The notes below the pieces were generated by a model. It had not been told where the DNA came from, searched no databases, and worked only from the letters and a program-made list of their open reading frames with translations. The position numbers were made by a program, and so were the translations under genes. Below, in pieces: positions 18,245-57,769 of a DNA stretch of 59,785 nucleotides (its first letter is position 1; the number at the start of each line of letters is the position of its first letter). This DNA comes from an uncultured Bacteroidales bacterium (GTDB lineage Bacteria > Bacteroidota > Bacteroidia > Bacteroidales > Paludibacteraceae), in contig ONJT01000010.1 of the NCBI GenBank assembly GCA_900318245.1, positions 1-59,785 on the forward strand, written 5' to 3'.

Positions 18245-21200
18245 TTAGCGCGTGAGCATCAGTTTGATATTGAGACCGATATTATCTGTCTTAACAGGGT
18301 AGGAGGACGAGATAAGCGGCGTGGTACCTTGATGGTCGTAGAAGAGTTGCAGATTGATCTTCTGACTCAGTACATAGTCGGCCGAGATCTTGATAGCAAA
18401 GACTTTGTTACCGGACGAAGCCTGCGTGATTCCTTCGTCAATCTTACGGAGCAGCATCTTCACGTCTTTGTACGACAGATCGACTTGTATCTTGAGATCG
18501 TTGCTTACTTTCTTTTGTACGCCGTCTTTGTTCTTAGTGATGAAGTTGAGGTTCTTAATCGTATAACCGCCTCCGATGACGAATTCATCGGTATGCCCCT
18601 CGGTCAATTGTACGCTCGTGATGTTGAGCGCGAGGTTACGCTGCTTGCGGTACTCGGCTTTCACGGAGAGGGAGTTCTTCATCGTGAGGTTCACACCGAT
18701 AAGCGGCGAGAAGGCTTCGGTAAGGGTGACGTTGCTGATGTCGTATGCAGACGAAGGCATAGGCGAGTCAGTAGACACATTACGAACGAAGCCGACTTGC
18801 GTGTTGTTATCCTCACAGCCTACCCAGGTAGAGAACGAGCCATAGGAACCGATGGAATACTTACAAGTATACGCATGCGTGAGGGTAACCGATTTGAAGT
18901 GATCTTTCATCCACGGCAGTTTGCCTAAACCGTCGTACGTGAGGGACCAGTTCGGTATGATCTTAAGGATACTCAAGAAGGGGTTAAGGCCGATGGTGCG
19001 CGGGTTCTGACCCGTGTATGCAGCGAGGAAGGCAGGCACTAAGACGTCTGCCGACGTGGAGCTGACGCGCCCGTGCTTGTTCGGGTCGTACTTCGTCCCG
19101 GCCGGTATATCCTTCATGAATCCTTTACTCGGGAGCGTGATACCGGTATATTGGTCTTGCACGCGGGCATGCAGGATTGCGCGGTACTCCAAGAATCGGT
19201 CATATGTCGCGTTGGCGAAGTTAGCTTCTTGCGGTCCCACCGGTGCAAACATCGTTCCGATAGCGCACTGCGTGATGTTAAACGAACCCGTCACCATCTC
19301 TTGCGGATCATCGAAGGTGTAGATGATCGAACTCGATTGCGCGAAATAGCGCTTACCGTTCAGTTGTATCTTGAGACCCGGCAGGGGCTCGAGTGTCAGT
19401 TTGACATCGAAGTCCGAGGTGTGCGCGCGGATGGCAGGCTGCACGACAGAGGTGTCGCCGGATAACCAGCCGTTCTCTTTCGCGCGCTCGATCATGTTCG
19501 CCGGTATGAAACCGAAGGCGAAGTCATAACCCGGTGCCCAGATTCCGTTCACTTTACATTGTCCCATGAAGCCCGCTTCGGGTTCGAAGCCCGGAATGGT
19601 CATAGAGTTCGTCTCGCGATAGGTAACTTGCAGGCGGCGTACCATTGTACCGAGGTAAGCAAACATATCGCCTGTGATCTGTGCCGGCGTACGCTCGTTC
19701 GGGTCGCGTGTAGCAACCGTAATCGTCGCATTGGCGCAATCGGCCTTCGGCGTGATAGTCACTTTGGTATTGCCGTCCGGACGGAAGGATACAGGGACCG
19801 CTTTGCCGGTAGAGTCGGCTACGCTGACGGTGAGTAACTCCGTATTCAGACGGTGGGTTACTTCGAGCGGCTCGCCTTTCTTGAGCGCTACGGTCTGGGT
19901 ATAGTTCTTCGGCTTGAAGTTACGTTTGGTATTCCGACCGGTATAGCGCTGCGTCATTTGCTTCCAGTATTTGGATTTGCCGTACCAGGTCTCGAAGTTG
20001 ATACCTCCGTCTACTTGCCATGATTGCATCGAACTGATGGTGTTACCGCGGTTGATGCCATTGGATGAAGAGGCGGTGCGGTTCCAGTTATAGTTGGCGT
20101 TATAGGAAGCATTCGCGGTGAGCGGGTCGAGATACGGGATGCGGTTGAACGGCACATTCCAACTGGCGGTGAAGATCTGCTGGTATGCGTATGCATGGCC
20201 AAAGCGCGCCAGCGAACGCTGGATGGTGTCGCGCCATGCCTCGTAATGATCGTGGTTGAACTCCGGATCGAAATAGCGATCGATTAATATCTCCGGCGTA
20301 TATTTACCTTCATCGATGATGGCGTTCATCGCTGATTGGAAGGTGAACTTCAGGTTCTTCGTCAGGTCGTATTTGATATCTACGTTACGATCCCAGGTGA
20401 AGTCCTTGCTATAGGTCAGGTCCATCGCTTGGGCCGAAGAACCGGCGAGGTCGCGCATCTTCATGTGGCTGAAGGTACGGTGCATGTTCATGCGGAAGGC
20501 CCAGGATTGCGGGAGATAGTAGAAATTCATCTCTTTGAGGACCTTCACGTTCTGCACTTTCTCTACTTTGCTGAACGGTTCCCAAGGCTTGGGATTGAAG
20601 TTATACGCATACTGGAATGAACCCTTATGGTCGGTGTTGTAGTTGGTCTCCATCTCCGGTGAGTGCTCCGCTTGCTTGTTGTACGAAGCCGAGAGCGAGA
20701 AGTTCGCCGGGTCGTAGAACATGTCGCGTTTCTTGGAGTGGATATCCACTTTGAAGTTCGACAAGGAGAAGGACGTGGACTCGTGTACCGTCGAGGTCAA
20801 AGCTTTGACGGAGTCACGATCCGATTTCTTCTCATAGGTGCTCAGGGTCTCCGCTAACTTCACGTCGGTATCGAGCGGGTCATAGTCCGGCGTAGTAGTC
20901 TCTTTGCTATAGGAGACGTAGAGCGGAATCTGCAGTTTGGCTTTCTCCGGGAAGAGTCGTCCGGCTTCCATGGCTGCGCTGACGGATATCTGGTAGAAAT
21001 TATCCATGTTGCGGTCGAGCACGTTGGCTTCGATAGATCCGTATCCGGCGGTCTCCAATCGTCCGGCTACGTTCACTTGCGCGATATCGCTGATAGCCAA
21101 TGCTGCATTCGCCATAGCGGCCACACCGCCCTGCTCGTTGAATTGGCTGAGACGTAACTCATCGACCCAGACCTCTCCGGAAACGTCGTGCTGGCCGTTG

Positions 21201-24200
21201 TTACGCACACCGATCATGATGGACGCTACATCTTCGAGTGTCGGGTTACCCATAACGGTGATCTTGTTCTGCGGATGACCGGATTCTTCGTCGTATACGA
21301 TGTATGGGATGGTGTTGCTTACCCCTGCGGTTCCTGCCCGTTTGGCTTTGTTACGCGCCAGCTTGGCATCCGTCAGCACTTTGAGCGCGAAGTTGAACAT
21401 GTTCGCATCCGGCCAAACGAGTCGGCGATCCGCTTCGGAGTTGTTATTATACAATCCCGGCGCAGTGAGGTGCAGCGGAATCTCGTACTCGTAGTAGTTA
21501 TTCTTAAGGTCCGTACCCAGACGGATGAAGCAAGAGAGGTCGCCGTCTTTGAGATTCGGGTCAAGGGCAGTGACTTGCTCCGCATGAACAAACATCTGGA
21601 GGTTCTTGTATTGGCGCATGTCGTAGACGGTGTTCTTGTACATCGCGCGGGCATCGTGCGGACTGAGGTTGGTGACACGCAACACCATCGATTGCTCATT
21701 CTGCGCGATGAGTTGGGCCTGTCCCGGGTCTGTCTGACGACTCACGCCAGGAGGAAGCACATAGTTGACCGGCGTACGAGTGCTGTTTTCTTCGATATTC
21801 ACAGCCTGCACGTCAATAGAAGCGCCTGTGTTGACAGGAATACCTACCGGCGCTAAGTCACGCGTGTACTGACGCCATTCGCCGCGAACGAGATCCATCG
21901 TCGCGAAACGCAGATAGGTATCATGCGCAAAGCCCGTGAGGAAGATACGCATGAAGCGGATGGATTTCCAGTTGCGGATGCCGTTGATCTTTTCTACCGT
22001 AGCGCTGTCTCCGCGAAGAGGAATCTTGAACTGATACCATGTTACATTGACCGTTTCGCCGTTACGCAGGGTGACCGCGCGAACCTTTTTCTCCGTGATA
22101 TGCTGTTTGCCGACCTCTAACATGTCGGGGCGGAGCAGCACTTTATACTGGTAGTATTTCTCGTATTCGTTCAGCGTGTTATCGAGGTTGACATCTTCGA
22201 TATCCGGTTGCATGGTAGCAGCAGTACCGTAACTCTCCGTCTGTTGCTCGGTTGCGGGGGAGTTGCCTTGAGGACCGTTGAAGTGCTTGTAACGGTCGAG
22301 GATGCTCACCTCCTGCTCATCGAAGTCTGTACCACGATAGAAATGGTAGTTATCGCCGGCAGGGTCATTTAGCGGCGAGAAAACGTCATTCTTCCATTTC
22401 TCGAGTACAAACGGATTGACTTTTTTGGTCAGTTCTTCCACAAAGGTCTTGTAGGCCGGCCAGTTGTGCTCTTGCTCATCATTCAAACCATTGAGACCGA
22501 CGTCTTGCATAGGGCGCGAACCGGGTTCGTTGCTAAAGGCAACCACCGTACTCGTCGTACGCGGAACGTAACCCCAAATGGTGGAGTCCACACGACCTTG
22601 GTCAGCCGGCGAGACGGGCAGACCATGCTCGAAGGCTTTCTTTCCGTCGTGGAGCACGTCCTCGCTGATGTCACCGAGGTTGATGTACATTTCGCCGTTG
22701 TAGTCGAGTTCGTGTCCTGGGTTAGTAAGGGCCGGATCCATCAGCCAGAACTGGATATACTCGATGTTCGCTTTCTCGAAATCCGTATTATCCATGCGGC
22801 GCATCATACCGCCCCAGCGTTGTTTCGGGTTGAGCATCTTACCATCCGCTCCGATCTCATCCGGCGCGATGTTATATTGTCCGCGCTCCTCAGGATAGAA
22901 GGCGAGGTTGAGCACCGGTAACTTGGTGTCCACGTTGCTGGCTTCCTGGCGATTCGGGTATATCTCGTCTTGGTACACAATACGTGTACGGTGGTCGCTG
23001 AGGGCAGCCAAGTCGTTGCGAATATGCGCAGGCGTGTTTGTTTGCGGATAGCCGAAGATAGGATCGACAGTATACCATGCCATGTGAGCACGGTTCTTAT
23101 TGTACGAGATGTCGTATGCCCTCGACTCCGCGAACTTAGCCGGCGTAGAGGCTAAGAACCAATAGGTCGGGTAATGAACGTCTATGTTCGTAGTAGTGTT
23201 CTCGAAGTCATCGATGTATGCTGTTCCCACAGAACCAACGTCATTGGTATGACCCGGGATGAGGTGCGCAAACTCGGCGTTGATAGAGAAGGTCGAAGGA
23301 GCGGTCGCTGTGATCCATGGGATCTTATCGATGGCATTGGTAAGCCACTGCATCTCGGTCTTCCAACTACCGTTCACACCCCAGATGGTGTTCGCCAGCG
23401 GTTCAGCACCCGTGTTGACTTTTGTAGTGAGCGGACGCTCGCGCAAGTGCATGATGGTACCGCCGATGACTAGGTCTTTAGAGAACTCATACTCAAGGTG
23501 AGCGCCGAAGAGCGACTTACGCTGCATAGAGAACGTGCTCTGGTTCTCCAGTTTGACATCTACGTTTGTGCCGGACTCCAGGATGGAGGTGTTAAGAATG
23601 GTAACCGTTCCCATGGTGTAGTCCACGGTGTAGTCGACATTCTCTACGAGGGTAGCACCTCCGGCGGTGACGGTGACACTTCCGCGCGGGATATTCATCG
23701 CGCCGAGGCGTATCTCGCTGCTGTTGGTGCCTTTGTACTTACCGGTGAGGCGGAATTTGTTTTTCTCCGTCATCTCTTGTGCGACTACTAAGGTAGAGTC
23801 GTAGAGTTCCGGGAAGCAGTACTTGCTTACCAAGCGCGGATCGTTATTCAGCACACTCGCCAAGTGGGAACCGAAAGGCTCCAGCACCGGGAAGATGATT
23901 CGGCCGGAGGAGGAATAGACGGTGAGTCCTTCGATGTAGTCGAATCGTCCATCGGGGCTGGCGTTATGCTTCTGATCCAAACGGTCGAGATTCATCACGC
24001 GAAGCAACTGCTTACCATTGACAGGACCTTCGTCTAAGTATTGCATGTCCGTACCGACGGAGTCGTTACGGTAGGTGACGTAGAGTTCGAATTTCTCTTG
24101 TGAGAGACTTGTTGCGCCCAGCGAGTAGATATTCTTCATCATGAGGTCCCATGTGCCGCGGTGCTTCTCGCCGGGCGCATTGGCGCTGGACTTCAGCATT

Positions 24201-25834
24201 TTAAGAGCCAAAGCATTTGGGGCACGCAGCTCTTCACCTCCGTCGGTGGAGAACTCACCCACTTGGTATACCTGGCCGTTATACGTATATTCGAACGCTA
24301 CAGCGAGGACCTCGTCTTGGTTGAGGGCGCTCTTGAGAGATATATATCCGAGTGAGGCATTGAGCGTATATTCGCTGCTGGTCAGCAAGCGCGCGGACTC
24401 GATCTTCTCGAAGTCCTCACCGCCATGCATGCCGTTGAGTCCTTCCAATGCCGTCGTGGTCTGCGACAGATCGCGGAAGGGCGTAGTTTTAACCGTCTCA
24501 TAAAGGGTGTTGGCGGTGTTATCAGGAACGGCGTTTGCGGACTTATCCCATGCGCGGTTGTGGGTGTGACGGCTGTTCTCACCGAGGTCGACGAAGGCTA
24601 CGATGTTACGTGCTTGGTCGTACGTGCCGCGCTTGTTGGTGATCCATACTTCAATTTTCGTGATCTGTGCTCCGCTCGCTACGTAAGGAACGGTCTCCAT
24701 CGCTTTCTCGAAGTTATCGCGGAAGAAATGGGCAAGGAAGAAATGTCGGTTCTCGTCGTAGTTATCCCCGGCGATATCGAAGCGCGTCATCTGCGCACCG
24801 CCTTGGCTGCTGACGGATTGCGATTCGCTGTTCTGCTGCGAGATGAGAGCTTGGATTCTCAGTTTGCCGAATTTGAGGTTCGTCTTGATACCAAACAGCG
24901 CTTTGCTACCGCGGATGAGCGACGAAGGCAAGTCCATCGTGACATTACCGGCTTCGATAGACTGAATGATATCGTCCTCTTCGCCTTTGTAGTTGAGTTT
25001 GAGATTCTGCTGGTCGAAAGAGAACGAAGCCTCGGTGTTATACGAGAGGTTGAAGTTGAGTTTTTGGCCCACTTTACCTTGTACGCTCGCTTGGATCTTC
25101 TCGTCGAAATCGAAGATGTTATTGTTGCGCGCGCGTGCGGTCAAAGACGGGTTAGCGATATACTGATGCTTGAATCCGAAGAGCAGTTCCGCCGAACCTT
25201 GCATCTTGAGTTGTACGCCACCCGGGCCGAACACTTTATCGGCAGGTCCGATATTGAACTTCATATCGGTGATGTCGAATTTCGTTTCGTTATTATGCTC
25301 GACTTCTCCGATTTTCTGCTGCCAGTATTTATGCATGATCTGCCGCTCGGCGTACTGGTTATATTCCTCTTGCGTGAGCAGGTAAGGCGTAGTGATGTCC
25401 GTATCGCCCATGCGCGTGCGAATGACGTACGTACCTGTCTCCGGTTGGTACTCCACGGAGGTGGTGATATTGTCCGGATCGTTCAGGTCAAGGGATGAGA
25501 CGGGTTGGGTCAGTTCGCCGTAGTTCTGCGCACCGAGTTGCTTCACGTTCGTCGGCGCCCATAGCGCACTGTCCGTGAGGGTGATGATATCGGCTACATC
25601 TTCAGGAACGGCTTCGCCGGCCGCAAGCGCCGCATCGCGTTTTGCCTTTGCCTCCTCGCGTGCTTTTTTCTCGGCTTCTTGCCGCGCTTTCTCTTCGGCC
25701 TTGGCTTTCTTCTCCGCCTCTTTGGCCGCCTTCTCTTCGGCGACTAACTCTTTGAGCGTCTTCTGGGCATACGTTACCTGCACGGACCCGAAGGCCAGTG
25801 TGCAAAGGAGTACTATGTGCAGGAATTTCTTCAA
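18245..25834 (-). CDS. sprA: SprA, T9SS outer-membrane translocon / gliding motility protein
   Basis: A 2529-residue outer-membrane protein, the giant barrel through which T9SS cargo is exported. A signal peptide (1-24) is followed by a Lys/Glu/Ala-rich coiled segment (about 27-72, KKAREEAKAKRD). Then come SprA N-type domains (PYLLTQEEYNQYAERQIMHK near 160, and VWITNKRG, ALFGIKTNLKFG motifs), and many alternating strands to the C-terminus (GLNIKLMLTR). No ATG is available: the frame begins with TTG at 25832-25834, one base after the ruvA stop, and that codon opens the signal peptide. Adjacency to ruvA is common in Bacteroidota. With the probable T9SS-tailed protein at 8.8-11.1 kb it indicates an active T9SS. 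Confidence 0.95.
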   Translation of the reverse strand: MKKFLHIVLLCTLAFGSVQVTYAQKTLKELVAEEKAAKEAEKKAKAEEKARQEAEKKAREEAKAKRDAALAAGEAVPEDVADIITLTDSALWAPTNVKQLGAQNYGELTQPVSSLDLNDPDNITTSVEYQPETGTYVIRTRMGDTDITTPYLLTQEEYNQYAERQIMHKYWQQKIGEVEHNNETKFDITDMKFNIGPADKVFGPGGVQLKMQGSAELLFGFKHQYIANPSLTARARNNNIFDFDEKIQASVQGKVGQKLNFNLSYNTEASFSFDQQNLKLNYKGEEDDIIQSIEAGNVTMDLPSSLIRGSKALFGIKTNLKFGKLRIQALISQQNSESQSVSSQGGAQMTRFDIAGDNYDENRHFFLAHFFRDNFEKAMETVPYVASGAQITKIEVWITNKRGTYDQARNIVAFVDLGENSRHTHNRAWDKSANAVPDNTANTLYETVKTTPFRDLSQTTTALEGLNGMHGGEDFEKIESARLLTSSEYTLNASLGYISLKSALNQDEVLAVAFEYTYNGQVYQVGEFSTDGGEELRAPNALALKMLKSSANAPGEKHRGTWDLMMKNIYSLGATSLSQEKFELYVTYRNDSVGTDMQYLDEGPVNGKQLLRVMNLDRLDQKHNASPDGRFDYIEGLTVYSSSGRIIFPVLEPFGSHLASVLNNDPRLVSKYCFPELYDSTLVVAQEMTEKNKFRLTGKYKGTNSSEIRLGAMNIPRGSVTVTAGGATLVENVDYTVDYTMGTVTILNTSILESGTNVDVKLENQSTFSMQRKSLFGAHLEYEFSKDLVIGGTIMHLRERPLTTKVNTGAEPLANTIWGVNGSWKTEMQWLTNAIDKIPWITATAPSTFSINAEFAHLIPGHTNDVGSVGTAYIDDFENTTTNIDVHYPTYWFLASTPAKFAESRAYDISYNKNRAHMAWYTVDPIFGYPQTNTPAHIRNDLAALSDHRTRIVYQDEIYPNRQEASNVDTKLPVLNLAFYPEERGQYNIAPDEIGADGKMLNPKQRWGGMMRRMDNTDFEKANIEYIQFWLMDPALTNPGHELDYNGEMYINLGDISEDVLHDGKKAFEHGLPVSPADQGRVDSTIWGYVPRTTSTVVAFSNEPGSRPMQDVGLNGLNDEQEHNWPAYKTFVEELTKKVNPFVLEKWKNDVFSPLNDPAGDNYHFYRGTDFDEQEVSILDRYKHFNGPQGNSPATEQQTESYGTAATMQPDIEDVNLDNTLNEYEKYYQYKVLLRPDMLEVGKQHITEKKVRAVTLRNGETVNVTWYQFKIPLRGDSATVEKINGIRNWKSIRFMRIFLTGFAHDTYLRFATMDLVRGEWRQYTRDLAPVGIPVNTGASIDVQAVNIEENSTRTPVNYVLPPGVSRQTDPGQAQLIAQNEQSMVLRVTNLSPHDARAMYKNTVYDMRQYKNLQMFVHAEQVTALDPNLKDGDLSCFIRLGTDLKNNYYEYEIPLHLTAPGLYNNNSEADRRLVWPDANMFNFALKVLTDAKLARNKAKRAGTAGVSNTIPYIVYDEESGHPQNKITVMGNPTLEDVASIMIGVRNNGQHDVSGEVWVDELRLSQFNEQGGVAAMANAALAISDIAQVNVAGRLETAGYGSIEANVLDRNMDNFYQISVSAAMEAGRLFPEKAKLQIPLYVSYSKETTTPDYDPLDTDVKLAETLSTYEKKSDRDSVKALTSTVHESTSFSLSNFKVDIHSKKRDMFYDPANFSLSASYNKQAEHSPEMETNYNTDHKGSFQYAYNFNPKPWEPFSKVEKVQNVKVLKEMNFYYLPQSWAFRMNMHRTFSHMKMRDLAGSSAQAMDLTYSKDFTWDRNVDIKYDLTKNLKFTFQSAMNAIIDEGKYTPEILIDRYFDPEFNHDHYEAWRDTIQRSLARFGHAYAYQQIFTASWNVPFNRIPYLDPLTANASYNANYNWNRTASSSNGINRGNTISSMQSWQVDGGINFETWYGKSKYWKQMTQRYTGRNTKRNFKPKNYTQTVALKKGEPLEVTHRLNTELLTVSVADSTGKAVPVSFRPDGNTKVTITPKADCANATITVATRDPNERTPAQITGDMFAYLGTMVRRLQVTYRETNSMTIPGFEPEAGFMGQCKVNGIWAPGYDFAFGFIPANMIERAKENGWLSGDTSVVQPAIRAHTSDFDVKLTLEPLPGLKIQLNGKRYFAQSSSIIYTFDDPQEMVTGSFNITQCAIGTMFAPVGPQEANFANATYDRFLEYRAILHARVQDQYTGITLPSKGFMKDIPAGTKYDPNKHGRVSSTSADVLVPAFLAAYTGQNPRTIGLNPFLSILKIIPNWSLTYDGLGKLPWMKDHFKSVTLTHAYTCKYSIGSYGSFSTWVGCEDNNTQVGFVRNVSTDSPMPSSAYDISNVTLTEAFSPLIGVNLTMKNSLSVKAEYRKQRNLALNITSVQLTEGHTDEFVIGGGYTIKNLNFITKNKDGVQKKVSNDLKIQVDLSYKDVKMLLRKIDEGITQASSGNKVFAIKISADYVLSQKINLQLFYDHQGTTPLISSSYPVKTDNIGLNIKLMLTR

Positions 25835-30417: not shown

Positions 30418-30909
30418 ATGAAAGACGTTAAGTTATTTCTAACCGACGTAGACGGATGTCTGACGGACACGGGAATGTACTACTCGGCGAACGGCGAGGA
30501 GATGAAGCGTTTCTGTGTGTACGATGGGATGGGAATGGTGTTGCTGCGCCAGGCCGGAATCCCGTGCGGAATCCTGACATCCGAGCAATCACCGATTGTA
30601 AAAGCGAGGGCAGAGAAATTGAAGTTAGAGTTTCTGTATCTGGGAGTGGGCAGTAAGGTGAACCCAAAGTGCTTGACCAAGCTGGAAGCAGCGCAAGAGA
30701 TATGTGTGAAATTGGGCATTGGTCTAGAGCATGTTTGTTATGTAGGGGATGATGTGAATGATGTCGACTTGTTGAGTGCCGTAGGATATCCTTGCTGTCC
30801 GCCGAATGCACGGCCGGAAGTGAAGGCTATCAAGGGAATCAAGGTGTTAAAGACGCCAGGAGGCCAAGGAGCGATTAGAGAGATTGCCGATGAAATATTG
30901 AAAAAATGA
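30418..30909 (+). CDS. kdsC: KdsC-type HAD phosphatase (Kdo 8-phosphate phosphatase)
   Basis: A 163-residue HAD hydrolase of the tetrameric, cap-less KdsC/YrbI group. Motif I is LTDVDGCLTD with nucleophile Asp10 and acid Asp12; motif II is the Thr in GILTSEQS, motif III Lys near 80, motif IV YVGDDVNDVDLL. It removes phosphate from Kdo 8-phosphate before activation by KdsB. Placement after kdsD supports this over the sialic-acid relatives. The operon ends here: just after the stop come inverted 9-bp arrays. Confidence 0.9.
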   Translation: MKDVKLFLTDVDGCLTDTGMYYSANGEEMKRFCVYDGMGMVLLRQAGIPCGILTSEQSPIVKARAEKLKLEFLYLGVGSKVNPKCLTKLEAAQEICVKLGIGLEHVCYVGDDVNDVDLLSAVGYPCCPPNARPEVKAIKGIKVLKTPGGQGAIREIADEILKK

Positions 30910-30911
30910 TA

Positions 30912-30975
30912 TGAGACAGTTGAGATAGTTGAGACAGTTAACGGGAAGTGTCTCAAGAGTCTCAAGAATCTCATG
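30912..30975. repeat. Inverted 9-bp array 1 (tgagacagt)
   Basis: Left arm: tgagacagt, tgagatagt, tgagacagt (30912-30938). Right arm (30949-30975): tgtctcaag, agtctcaag, aatctcatg, which pairs with the left arm through TGAGACA/TGTCTCA cores. The arms can form a long imperfect hairpin. Confidence 0.85.
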
Positions 30976-31026
30976 CAAATTTTCAAGTCGGATACCATCC
31001 GACACAACGAACATAGAAAAATGACA

Positions 31027-31088
31027 TTGCACTATTTGCACTATCTGCACTTTGGAGGATGAAAGTGCAAAAAGTGCAGAAAGTGCAA
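31027..31088. repeat. Inverted 9-bp array 2 (ttgcactat)
   Basis: Left arm: ttgcactat, ttgcactat, ctgcacttt (31027-31053). Right arm: aaagtgcaa, aaagtgcag, aaagtgcaa (31062-31088). The 8-base loop is ggaggatg. The 27-base arms are nearly fully complementary. Confidence 0.88.
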
Positions 31089-31102
31089 AGCAAAAAATAA
31101 TA

Positions 31103-31156
31103 TGGCACTATTGGCAAAAATGGCAAAAGTTTTGCCAAACTAGCCACTTTTGCCAA
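31103..31156. repeat. Inverted 9-bp array 3 (tggcaaaaa)
   Basis: Left arm: tggcactat, tggcaaaaa, tggcaaaag (31103-31129). Right arm: ttttgccaa, actagccac, ttttgccaa (31130-31156). Same unit length and number as arrays 1 and 2, different core. Confidence 0.85.
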
Positions 31157-31195
31157 AGCAAATTTTTAGAAAGAAACTAAATAAGGTTGATAGAA

Positions 31196-32764
31196 ATGAG
31201 AGTATATCACGGAAACATAGTAACTGTGGATGAGAAGAATAGTGTCTATCAATATCTTGTAGAAGATAAGGGACGGATCGTGTATGTAGGCGATGTTTTG
31301 CCCAAAGAGTATGTAACTGCTGAGTTGCTTGAATTAGGCAAGAAGGCGATTGTGCCTTCGTTTGTGGACACCCATCAACATTTTGCTTCGTTCGCTATCT
31401 TCCATTCGGGGCTGAATGTAATGGACTTCACGTCGAATAAAGAGATGCTGGTCGCTATTAAGGAATATGTAGCAAAAGCAGAGGAGAAGAGTTTGCTGGC
31501 TTTCGGAGCATCACCTTATTCCGTAAAGGAGAAACGACTAATCAATCGTGAGGAGTTGGATAGTGTATGTCCGGACAAGCCAATGATGATGGTGAAATAC
31601 GACGGACATGCGTGTGTGGTAAATAGTGTACTGCTGAAGAAATTAGAGAAGAAGTTGTGCAAGTTACGCGGCTATCATCCCGAAAGCGGAGAAATGAACC
31701 AAGAGGCATTCTTTGCAGTGTCGGATTATATTTCCAATTCGATATCTATACCGAATATGATTCGAAATATGCAGAAGGCTGTTGACTATGAGGCTGCGCA
31801 TGGAATAGGTATGGTCCATACCGTGAGTGGAGTAGGTTTTCCGCTAAATGCAGATATAACGATAGAGAAATTGTTCGCGAAGAGCGTGCAGAACGGATTT
31901 CAGATAAGAGTATTTCCGCAGTCGATGGATACAAGTGTGGCGACAAGTCGTAAATTGCCGCGAATAGGTGGATGTTTTGAATGTGCCTTGGATGGCTGTT
32001 ATGGTTCACAGGATGCGGCAATGATTGAGCCGTATGTGAATGATAAGAGTAACAGCGGTGTATTATACTATACGGATGAGAAAGTGATTGATTTCTGCAT
32101 GAAAGCGAATAGGCTTGGACTGCAAATAGAGATGCATGCAATAGGCGATAAAGCATTTGAACAAGCTACGAAAGCGTTAAAGGCTGCGTTGGACGATTTC
32201 CCGAGAGAAGACCATCGACATGGAATTATCCATGCGTGCCTGCCAACCAAAGAGGGGGTCGATATTTGTGCAAAATATCATATTAATCTGCTGATGCAAT
32301 CCGCATTCGATAACTGGCGTCAGGAACCGCCAGAGTACACGGAGAGTATCTTGGGTAAGGAGCGAAATGCGCAACTGAATCCCGTGAAGACCTTTGTGGA
32401 AAACGGATGTATAGTCGGTCAGGGTAGTGATGCTCCATGTACGAATCCGGACCCGATAGACTGGTTGTACAGGGCTTGCAATCATACGAATCCGAGTCAA
32501 TCGGTGGATGTTTATACGGCTTTGCGTATGTTGACGTATAATGGGTGCTATGCTACGTTTGATGAGAAGGAGCGCGGAACTTTGGAGAAAGGGAAGATCG
32601 CCGATATGGTTATTCTGTCTGATAATCCCTATAAAGTAGAACCGCAGAATTTACGCCAATTGAAAGTGGAGAAGTTGATTCTCTCGGGCGAAGAATACAA
32701 ACCCCAGAACCAATCCCTGGCATCGGTTGTTTGGCAGGGTATTACTAGTAGTCAGAAATATTAA
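31196..32764 (+). CDS. Amidohydrolase family 3 (YtcJ-like) metal-dependent hydrolase
   Basis: A 522-residue amidohydrolase. An N-terminal composite beta domain (RVYHGNIVTVDE, residues 1-60) leads to the metal motif FVDTHQHFASF (His-x-His), later IEMHAIGDKAFEQ and HGIIHACLP with metal His, and VGQGSDAPCTNPDPI with the catalytic Asp; the second beta domain closes it (KGKIADMVILSDNP). Relatives hydrolyse amide or carbamoyl bonds. I chose the ATG at 31196; a TTG three codons upstream is possible. It heads the glycan cluster right after the three inverted arrays; no promoter of the usual kind is clear there. Confidence 0.85.
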   Translation: MRVYHGNIVTVDEKNSVYQYLVEDKGRIVYVGDVLPKEYVTAELLELGKKAIVPSFVDTHQHFASFAIFHSGLNVMDFTSNKEMLVAIKEYVAKAEEKSLLAFGASPYSVKEKRLINREELDSVCPDKPMMMVKYDGHACVVNSVLLKKLEKKLCKLRGYHPESGEMNQEAFFAVSDYISNSISIPNMIRNMQKAVDYEAAHGIGMVHTVSGVGFPLNADITIEKLFAKSVQNGFQIRVFPQSMDTSVATSRKLPRIGGCFECALDGCYGSQDAAMIEPYVNDKSNSGVLYYTDEKVIDFCMKANRLGLQIEMHAIGDKAFEQATKALKAALDDFPREDHRHGIIHACLPTKEGVDICAKYHINLLMQSAFDNWRQEPPEYTESILGKERNAQLNPVKTFVENGCIVGQGSDAPCTNPDPIDWLYRACNHTNPSQSVDVYTALRMLTYNGCYATFDEKERGTLEKGKIADMVILSDNPYKVEPQNLRQLKVEKLILSGEEYKPQNQSLASVVWQGITSSQKY

Positions 32765-56818: not shown

Positions 56819-57769
56819 ATGTGGATTGTTTTATCGTTCATCTCCGCCCTCTGTCTGGGGTGCTATGATATCAGTAAGAAGATCGCGCTGCGGGAGAACC
56901 GGGTGATTGATGTGCTGACGTTGAGTGTGTGTATCTCGACGGTGCTGTTGTCGGTGCCGTGGGTGCTGTCGCGGGTGTGTCCGGAGACGATGACGGCTAC
57001 GCCGTTCTACGTGCCGCAACTGGATCTGGCGGCGCACGGGTTGGTGGTCGTGAAGTCGATGATCGTGCTGAGCAGTTGGGTGTTTGCATATATCTCGTTG
57101 AAGCACCTGCCGCTGTCGGTGGTGAGTCCGATGCAGGCGACGCGGCCGATGTGGACGTTGGTGGGTGCGTTGCTGCTGTTCGGGGAGCGCCTGAACGGCT
57201 GGCAGTGGCTGGGTGTGAGTCTGGCGATAGGAACGGTGTTTGTGTTCTCGTTTCGTAATAAACAGACTATTCGGAATACCAGGCATACTCCGGCGGGCCG
57301 CTATTATGTGGCACTGGTGTTGGCGATATTGATCGGGGCGTGTTCAGGCTTGTACGACAAGTACCTGATGCGCAGTTATGACCATAACGCCGTGCAGGTG
57401 TATTATACCTTCTACCAGGCGCTGATGATGCTCGTGGTGTGGGGAATTGAGAGAGGAATAAGGGCAAAAAGGGAACAAGCTAATTGGGCAAAAAGGGAAC
57501 AAGCTAATTGGGGGTTGGAGCTGAAGGGAGCATGGTGGGTGATAGGATTGATTTCGGTGTTTTTGATCATCAGCGATAATGTGTATATGTTGGCGCTGCG
57601 GGATCCGGACAGTCTGATAGCGGTAGTGAGTACGATACGAAGAGGTGGGGCGGTGATAGGCTTTGCGTATGGATTGCTTTTCCTCAAAGAGGAAGATCCG
57701 TGGAAGAAAGTCGCCTGCATGGTTGGCATCCTCGCAGGACTGATATGCCTGGCGATTGGGTCGATGTAG
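56819..57769 (+). CDS. EamA/DMT-family transporter
   Basis: A 316-residue inner-membrane protein of the drug/metabolite transporter superfamily with about ten membrane segments in two EamA repeats (first: MWIVLSFISALCLGCYDISK to about 145; second: YYVALVLAILIGACSGLYDK to the end). Pro-rich SVVSPMQATRPMWTLVGALL in segment four is typical. The substrate is not predictable. Between the repeats lies a perfect 24-bp tandem duplication (57462-57509) that encodes AKREQANW twice in a cytoplasmic or periplasmic loop. It is a single-gene unit with a strong promoter. Confidence 0.88.
   Translation: MWIVLSFISALCLGCYDISKKIALRENRVIDVLTLSVCISTVLLSVPWVLSRVCPETMTATPFYVPQLDLAAHGLVVVKSMIVLSSWVFAYISLKHLPLSVVSPMQATRPMWTLVGALLLFGERLNGWQWLGVSLAIGTVFVFSFRNKQTIRNTRHTPAGRYYVALVLAILIGACSGLYDKYLMRSYDHNAVQVYYTFYQALMMLVVWGIERGIRAKREQANWAKREQANWGLELKGAWWVIGLISVFLIISDNVYMLALRDPDSLIAVVSTIRRGGAVIGFAYGLLFLKEEDPWKKVACMVGILAGLICLAIGSM
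57462..57509. repeat. Perfect 24-bp tandem duplication in the EamA gene
   Basis: The unit gggcaaaaagggaacaagct plus aatt is repeated twice without change, giving AKREQANW-AKREQANW. Confidence 0.92.

Follow-up and report, generated by a model that had tools for sequence, protein, structure and literature searches.

The window, that is, the whole 59,785-base stretch of DNA analyzed here, carries three inverted arrays between a gene for a HAD-type phosphatase and a gene for an amidohydrolase (Table 1). The neighboring genes of the locus encode glycosyltransferase, LicD and Caps_synth domains (Pfam), and the kdsC-amidohydrolase junction is within a surface-sugar operon of a gut bacterium. All three arrays named in a preliminary description of this DNA are present in the sequence. 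Its claim that every arm consists of three units applies to arrays 1 and 2, which are strict arrays with three 9-bp units in each arm, but the right arm of array 3 lacks three clean units. The small spacer hairpin GTCGGATACCATCCGAC has a very similar counterpart in array chains of two other genomes (G058 and G108). Elsewhere, the window contains a 2529-codon open reading frame (18245-25834, minus strand) and a 24-bp tandem repeat of 2.1 copies with a 100% match (57462-57512).

Table 1 Features of the array locus, in window coordinates
Feature	Position	Strand	Remark
Upstream gene, HAD-type phosphatase	30418..30909	+	Pfam; "kdsC" is the name given in the preliminary description
Array 1 left frame AAAATGATA	30903..30911	+	includes the kdsC TGA stop
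Array 1, whole span	30912-30973		
Array 1 left arm TGAGACAGT TGAGATAGT TGAGACAGT	30912..30938	+	
Array 1 loop TAACGGGA	30939..30946	+	8 nt
Array 1 right arm AGTGTCTCA AGAGTCTCA AGAATCTCA	30947..30973	+	
Array 1 right frame TGCAAATTTT	30974..30983	+	
Small spacer hairpin GTCGGATACCATCCGAC	30987..31003	+	
Array 2 left frame AAAATGACA	31018..31026	+	
Array 2, whole span	31027-31088		
Array 2 left arm TTGCACTAT TTGCACTAT CTGCACTTT	31027..31053	+	
Array 2 loop GGAGGATG	31054..31061	+	8 nt
Array 2 right arm AAAGTGCAA AAAGTGCAG AAAGTGCAA	31062..31088	+	
Joint where the right frame of array 2 (AGCAAA) meets the left frame of array 3 (AAAATAATA)	31089..31102	+	A tract common to both
Array 3, whole span	31103-31155		
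Array 3 left arm TGGCACTAT TGGCAAAAA TGGCAAAAG	31103..31129	+	
Array 3 right arm	31129..31155	+	less regular, hardly any loop; base 31129 common to both arms
Array 3 right frame and conserved leader AAGCAAATTTTTAGAAAGAAACTAAATAAGG...	31156..31195	+	reaches the amidohydrolase start
Downstream gene, amidohydrolase (Amidohydro_3)	31196..32764	+	Pfam

A scan that makes no use of unit sequence (periods 6-14, 27-nt arms) returned two matches over the 59,785 bases, arrays 1 and 2, both at period 9, and no array of this architecture appeared with the same settings in 20 dinucleotide shuffles of the window. When the arms were shortened to 22 nt, two matches were obtained in the intergenic stretch of 287 nt, and any match at all was seen in 2 of 2000 shuffles of it. 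The preliminary description had named such a scan as its own refuter, should shuffled sequence hold these arrays as often; shuffles yield them rarely. A looser scan of 334,508 bases of the genome (the window plus 20 stretches) gave nine matches, only arrays 1 and 2 having period 9 and the seven others having periods of 6, 7, 8, 11, 12, 13 and 14; five shuffles of all 334,508 bases gave one match. Two inverted arrays of 7-bp units (AGGTGAA vs TTTCAAT type) also occur in the genome (L050:11401-11471 and L057:6575-6648), and the commonest short tandem periods in the part of this genome sampled were 7 bp (24 windows) and 14 bp (28 windows), compared with 0.3 and 3 in shuffles. Array 3 was missed by the unit-free scans, those with 18-nt arms included, and is a looser family member; what recovers it is a covariance model whose training arrays came from elsewhere (E = 4.2e-4, model E-values being rough). 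The array region folds at -93.7 kcal/mol (z = -9.0), the plus and minus strands of the stretch folding about equally well.

Arrays in the same frame as those of the window also lie downstream of kdsC in two related species. A frame-pattern search across genomes of the same genus revealed many different cores, its count of 43 of 151 genomes containing chance matches and not being a prevalence. When a grammar pattern was run over a collection of species genomes, at least 119 stretches matched, and among the matches listed our extractor found an array in 69 of the 119; all of these but one (L140) are labelled Bacteroidales or Paludibacteraceae, many from the ruminant gut. We dropped L140 as a family member: together with L125 it belongs to one metagenome-assembled genome labelled Proteobacteria, which carries a different 9-bp tandem repeat (TATGGGACC type). 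Reading 14 stretches with other labels gave 13 without a second arm, the remaining one being L140, and the extractor found no array in five further stretches with other labels (L183, L186, L194, L203 and L206). From 91 distinct extracted rows (144 occurrences) we kept 86, leaving out three register duplicates, one misread minus-strand copy and L140. The subsets used below (58+11, 57 and 23 arrays) omit shorter loops, and that of 57 also omits the TTGCA and TAGCA arrays.

The covariance model, trained on 13 arrays, matches 28 of the 61 genomes of the window's genus, its own genome included, with 0 to 25 matches per genome when both strands are counted. In its own genome this locus is the only match among the 76 of 500 first-look candidates that were scored. 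Under strict filters, two of 295 genomes of the order match, both from the window's genus, and no match was found outside that genus among the 183 genera sampled; 15 candidates per genome were scored in this search, so weak relatives may be missed. The arrays are thus a dispersed, genus-restricted family and not local inventions. The preliminary description had proposed that each array grows from a locally chosen seed. Instead, the cores come from few classes that recur across many genomes in the same frame, which makes the three arrays members of a dispersed repeat family; its other observation, a conserved architecture with differing cores, extends to all 86 distinct arrays. We rejected a phage or plasmid origin: searches of phage and plasmid collections gave no array match, and in the single viral-contig match a second arm was not seen. 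For 30700-31400, Rfam 15 returned ten matches with E no higher than 1, all of them short of their gathering score, and our searches of an open-access library brought up no account of the repeat.

The members of the family share a frame, a core common to the six units of an array, and a strand-polar unpaired position. The right frame (G/A)CAAA follows 80 of the 86 arrays (GCAAA in 63) and was not used in finding most of them; AAAATG[AC] precedes 80 of the 86, the left frame being part of the search pattern. Sorted by their first four letters, the cores fall into the classes TGGC (28), TGAC (28), TGAG (15), TGCA (13), TGTC (1) and TAGC (1). Unit position 1 is T in 258 of 258 left-arm and 255 of 258 right-arm units, and the corresponding counts of G at position 2 are 256 and 252 of 258. 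At the class-variable positions 3, 4 and 5 the two arms match in 87, 98 and 87% of cells, falling to 52 and 43% at positions 7 and 8. The arms are not perfect duplexes, position 8 being mostly unpaired. Its pairing equals the expectation from column composition (0.16 vs 0.17 in unit 1, 0.16 vs 0.19 in unit 2), and on the frame strand its mismatches are polar: in 58 arrays, purine-purine outnumbers pyrimidine-pyrimidine by 42 to 7 in unit 1 and by 42 to 6 in unit 2.

Long hairpins with compensating arms are usually read as proof of a selected RNA structure, and a rival explanation of this kind would see in each array a transcribed hairpin, its shape kept for mRNA stability, attenuation or protein binding, with three helices of 6-8 bp, purine internal loops every 9 bp and cores that drift by compensatory change. 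It is consistent with the stable folds, with the purine-rich internal loops of one strand and with the strong covariation: between classes, both partners differ in 18 of the 27 pairs, compared with 12.5 in shuffles, and the covariation score is 0.514 against 0.164, in an author-chosen, mixed-class alignment of 13 arrays with a loop of 8 and with shuffles that do not preserve relatedness. The orientation bias and the spacing to downstream genes reported below also count in its favor. Against it, the minus strand folds about equally well, the arrays were not found in the other genera sampled, framed left arms lacking a right arm are common, with half arrays in the genome itself, and in mixed arrays the facing units pair no better than the non-facing ones. 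We consider it unlikely that selection for RNA structure explains the arrays.

This last point comes from comparing units within arrays. In 57 arrays, core identity is 0.895 between left-arm units, 0.849 between right-arm units, 0.849 between facing units and 0.881 between non-facing units, so that identity within arrays is 0.85-0.90, compared with 0.527 between arrays. Correction of base pairs one at a time would make facing units the best match. Of the 57 arrays, 23 are mixed, and there the facing order gives 55 core mismatches and the five other orders give 41-50; in-register correction of facing positions was not detected in this set. That facing units match no better than others points to homogenization and not to pair-by-pair compensation, the six units of an array behaving as one homogenized set that shares a core. 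The slightly lower likeness of facing units also means that in-register arm-to-arm copying is not supported, which counts against the explanation that we favor below, as do the similar folding of both strands and the strand-polar mismatches at position 8, the latter being unexpected if mutation alone were at work.

A framed triple can also occur without a hairpin. Among the matches listed, 24 Bacteroidales loci have a framed left arm and no extracted array, and in most of them inspection by eye of the following 110 nt revealed no clear right arm, a few being cut, loose or nested. These one-sided arms slightly lower our confidence in the favored explanation and slightly raise that in the rivals that invoke a mobile element, binding sites or terminators. 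Framed one-sided triples of the AAAATGACATGACACTTTTGACACTTTTGACACTTTCT type are found in several species (L094, L108, L109, L149, L153, L158, L167 and L168). In the window's own genome, half arrays of the array 2 class (AAAGTGCAG/AAAGTGCAA) lie at L053:9538 (contig C16) and at L055:12364 and 13127 (contig C19), their opposite arm not evident; those on C19 carry a joint of the GCAAAAAAATAAGAT type.

Comparing copies revealed turnover at the level of loops and of whole cassettes. Ten inverted-loop pairs were flagged, all being copies and not orthologous before/after pairs (the genomes are one per species), and six are convincing: four share one 17-19-nt loop, two of them exactly, and two have an exact 6-nt loop. 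One stretch (L107) holds both orientations of the 17-19-nt loop, one copy there being two bases shorter. The four other flagged pairs have short loops and different classes and may be chance. Whole cassettes are present or absent within one genome, where a gammaL-beta-delta-gammaR arrangement (L271) is matched by gammaL-delta-gammaR (L272). Six places carry arms identical to those of array 1; the array that comes next belongs to the TTGCAC class at two of them and to the TGAGA/TAAGA class at the other four. Among 178 genomes of the genus, 8 have the amidohydrolase gene, and arrays lie within 420 nt before it in three genomes and in none of the other five. Two species (G006 and G108) agree in the amidohydrolase gene and in the gene upstream of it (RhuM family, 89% identical, where the window has kdsC), with different array sets in between; in G036, a 35%-identical relative of kdsC lies directly upstream of the amidohydrolase gene without arrays. 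Inverted loops, cassette gain and loss, and differing arrays at one gene pair across two species together show that the arrays turn over.

Such presence or absence before one gene is also what a miniature mobile element would produce, its frame recognized by a transposase or recombinase and its arms serving as binding repeats. Copies that are nearly the same although their sites in one genome are unrelated, and the patchy number of model matches per genome, also fit this rival. However, when copies of one genome were read with their flanks, no target duplication was seen by eye, and the RAYT-type Y1 transposase is absent from three array-rich genomes (G015, G033 and G071). We rejected this enzyme as the mobilizer, PF01797 being found in 10 of the 28 array-bearing genomes and in 12 of the 33 others. 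A serine resolvase was likewise rejected as a partner, being common in the genus (110 of 178 genomes); a match to the covariance model (E up to 0.1) lies within about 1.5 kb of it in 5 of 30 resolvase loci, three of them strong, which also speaks against a mobile element. Overall, we regard this explanation as rather improbable. In two species a serine resolvase gene adjoins the array chain (L281, L287 and L288).

With regard to genomic context, 75 of 102 instances, about five of which are duplicates or false hits, lie outside open reading frames called with a crude ORF caller, and 27 overlap them. The 75 non-overlapping instances are oriented like the upstream gene in 53 cases and opposite to it in 17, no upstream gene being called in 5; the p value of 2e-5 assumes independence, and the instances include related copies and are not independent. 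A same-strand gene starts within 140 nt downstream of 23 arrays; 14 of these stop 29-47 nt short of that gene, and a AGAAAGAAACTAAATAG-like leader precedes the gene in several cases. Ten of 17 downstream proteins searched against Pfam are sugar-nucleotide, acyl-transfer or related enzymes, and the other seven comprise RhuM, DUF1016, a HAD hydrolase, a resolvase, a sub-threshold carbohydrate-binding match and two proteins without a family; these 17 were hand-picked, not drawn at random, and we claim no enrichment. A 124-aa protein without a Pfam match (MAHYKPTAGF..., L160:2377-2751) follows one array, and arrays at L164, L199 and L283 precede proteins with a similar start.

A further possibility is that the arrays are ordinary intrinsic terminators, and the preliminary description had included termination among their possible roles. 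Support for that suggestion is weak: arrays that close a chain often end in GCAAATTTTT. However, on the frame strand a T4 lies no more than 12 nt from the 3' foot in 24 of the 86 arrays and starts within 6 nt in 11, the sole terminator-like match in 30700-31400 sits on the minus strand, and several arrays directly precede a same-strand gene. We hold this explanation to be extremely improbable.

Arrays occur singly and in company. In 74 clusters (a few duplicates included) the extractor found one array in 53, two in 18 and three in 3. In one species group, the outer arms of one class surround hairpins of other classes, and a multibranch fold is predicted; two such stretches of about 260 nt (L208 and L278) hold two other-class hairpins inside the outer arms. 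Upstream of arrays at L271, L273-L275, L277-L281 and L283-L285 lies an A-rich leader made up of several units of 12 bp (AATAACTAAGG type), and in many cases a small hairpin, variable in sequence, stands between it and the first array; the window lacks this leader. Several classes can stand in a row at one locus, which argues against another rival, that the arrays gather binding sites for related DNA-binding proteins, each core class having its own specificity; binding was also among the possibilities named in the preliminary description. This rival gains from the core that six units share irrespective of facing order, from the almost invariant TG at unit positions 1-2 and from the one-sided triples. 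On the other side, no candidate protein emerged, and the spacers differ by strand and not by unit orientation. We consider it quite unlikely.

How does the family relate to known repeats? Integron attC sites have conserved ends around a variable, imperfect hairpin, the order of their cassettes varies, and their core sites are RYYYAAC / GTTRRRY. The arrays resemble them in conserved ends, variable imperfect hairpin and cassette order, but the array cassette carries no gene, and 7-mers like the attC motif occur in 0 of 86 arrays. In BOX-type repeats, modules combine in variable number into one element. The arrays are modular too; they differ in sequence and build, each module being a hairpin of 9-bp units with a switchable core. 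REP and BIME elements are described in PMC3733652 as palindromes tagged GTAG and CGTC. The traits given there, short, palindromic, intergenic, multi-copy and plausibly transcribed elements, with families of different stems and grouped copies, are shared by the arrays, which are multi-copy, intergenic and palindromic and hence REP-like in a loose sense. In contrast, none of the 86 arrays has a GTAG/CGTC tag on either strand in the 12 nt next to the arms, the arms consist of three tandem 9-bp units, the stem class differs inside a fixed frame, and the arrays have no association with RAYT. The earlier view that they are unlike REP or MITE families is thus borne out in tags, RAYT association and stem class, and not in their nature, since they are a dispersed palindromic repeat all the same. 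PMC8604942 presents arm homogenization and spacer inversion as effects of template switching, and PMC8794818 argues that template switching is able to create and maintain hairpins. Both effects are seen here. Compared with the hairpins of the two papers, we have a whole family, with tandem units in each arm and class switching, and no in-register correction was detected in the arrays. The family is known in kind (REP/BOX-like) and unusual in its build and its signs of concerted rewriting.

We favor, at about an even chance, the explanation that the arrays are a REP/BOX-like intercistronic repeat rewritten by replication slippage and hairpin template switching. Each cassette consists of a frame (A-tract and TGAYAT on the left, GCAAA on the right) around a hairpin with three 9-bp units per arm, and cassettes sit between genes singly, chained or nested, mostly oriented like the upstream gene. 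The class-level covariation, the homogenized cores, the inverted loops, the cassette turnover and the orientation bias described above count in favor of this explanation. In this model, concerted evolution would keep the arms alike: slippage may spread a variant unit along an arm, and DNA-polymerase template switching across the hairpin may carry it to the other arm and flip the loops. Through these two processes the core could change while shape and frame stay. Recombination in the common A-rich joint would exchange cassettes. The element may be transcribed within operons, and any action it has might be that of an intercistronic RNA hairpin in mRNA stability or polarity, a plausible role of the kind proposed for REP sequences.

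More speculatively, and with considerable doubt, we hypothesize a self-rewriting repeat, in which a fixed frame and 9-bp period hold a word of 5-6 bp that is copied through the six slots of the two arms and changes block-wise. Chaining and nesting of cassettes would then place many combinations of hairpins between genes, those for surface glycans among them, and a host factor that binds RNA or DNA might read them.

The family offers a natural setting in which to study the rewriting of DNA hairpins. A word shared without facing preference, flipped loops and words that differ between arrays make it a natural test of the extent to which mutation only, by slippage and template switching, can build hairpins and keep them up. 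It also tests how intergenic repeats spread and reassort in the operons of uncultured gut bacteria.
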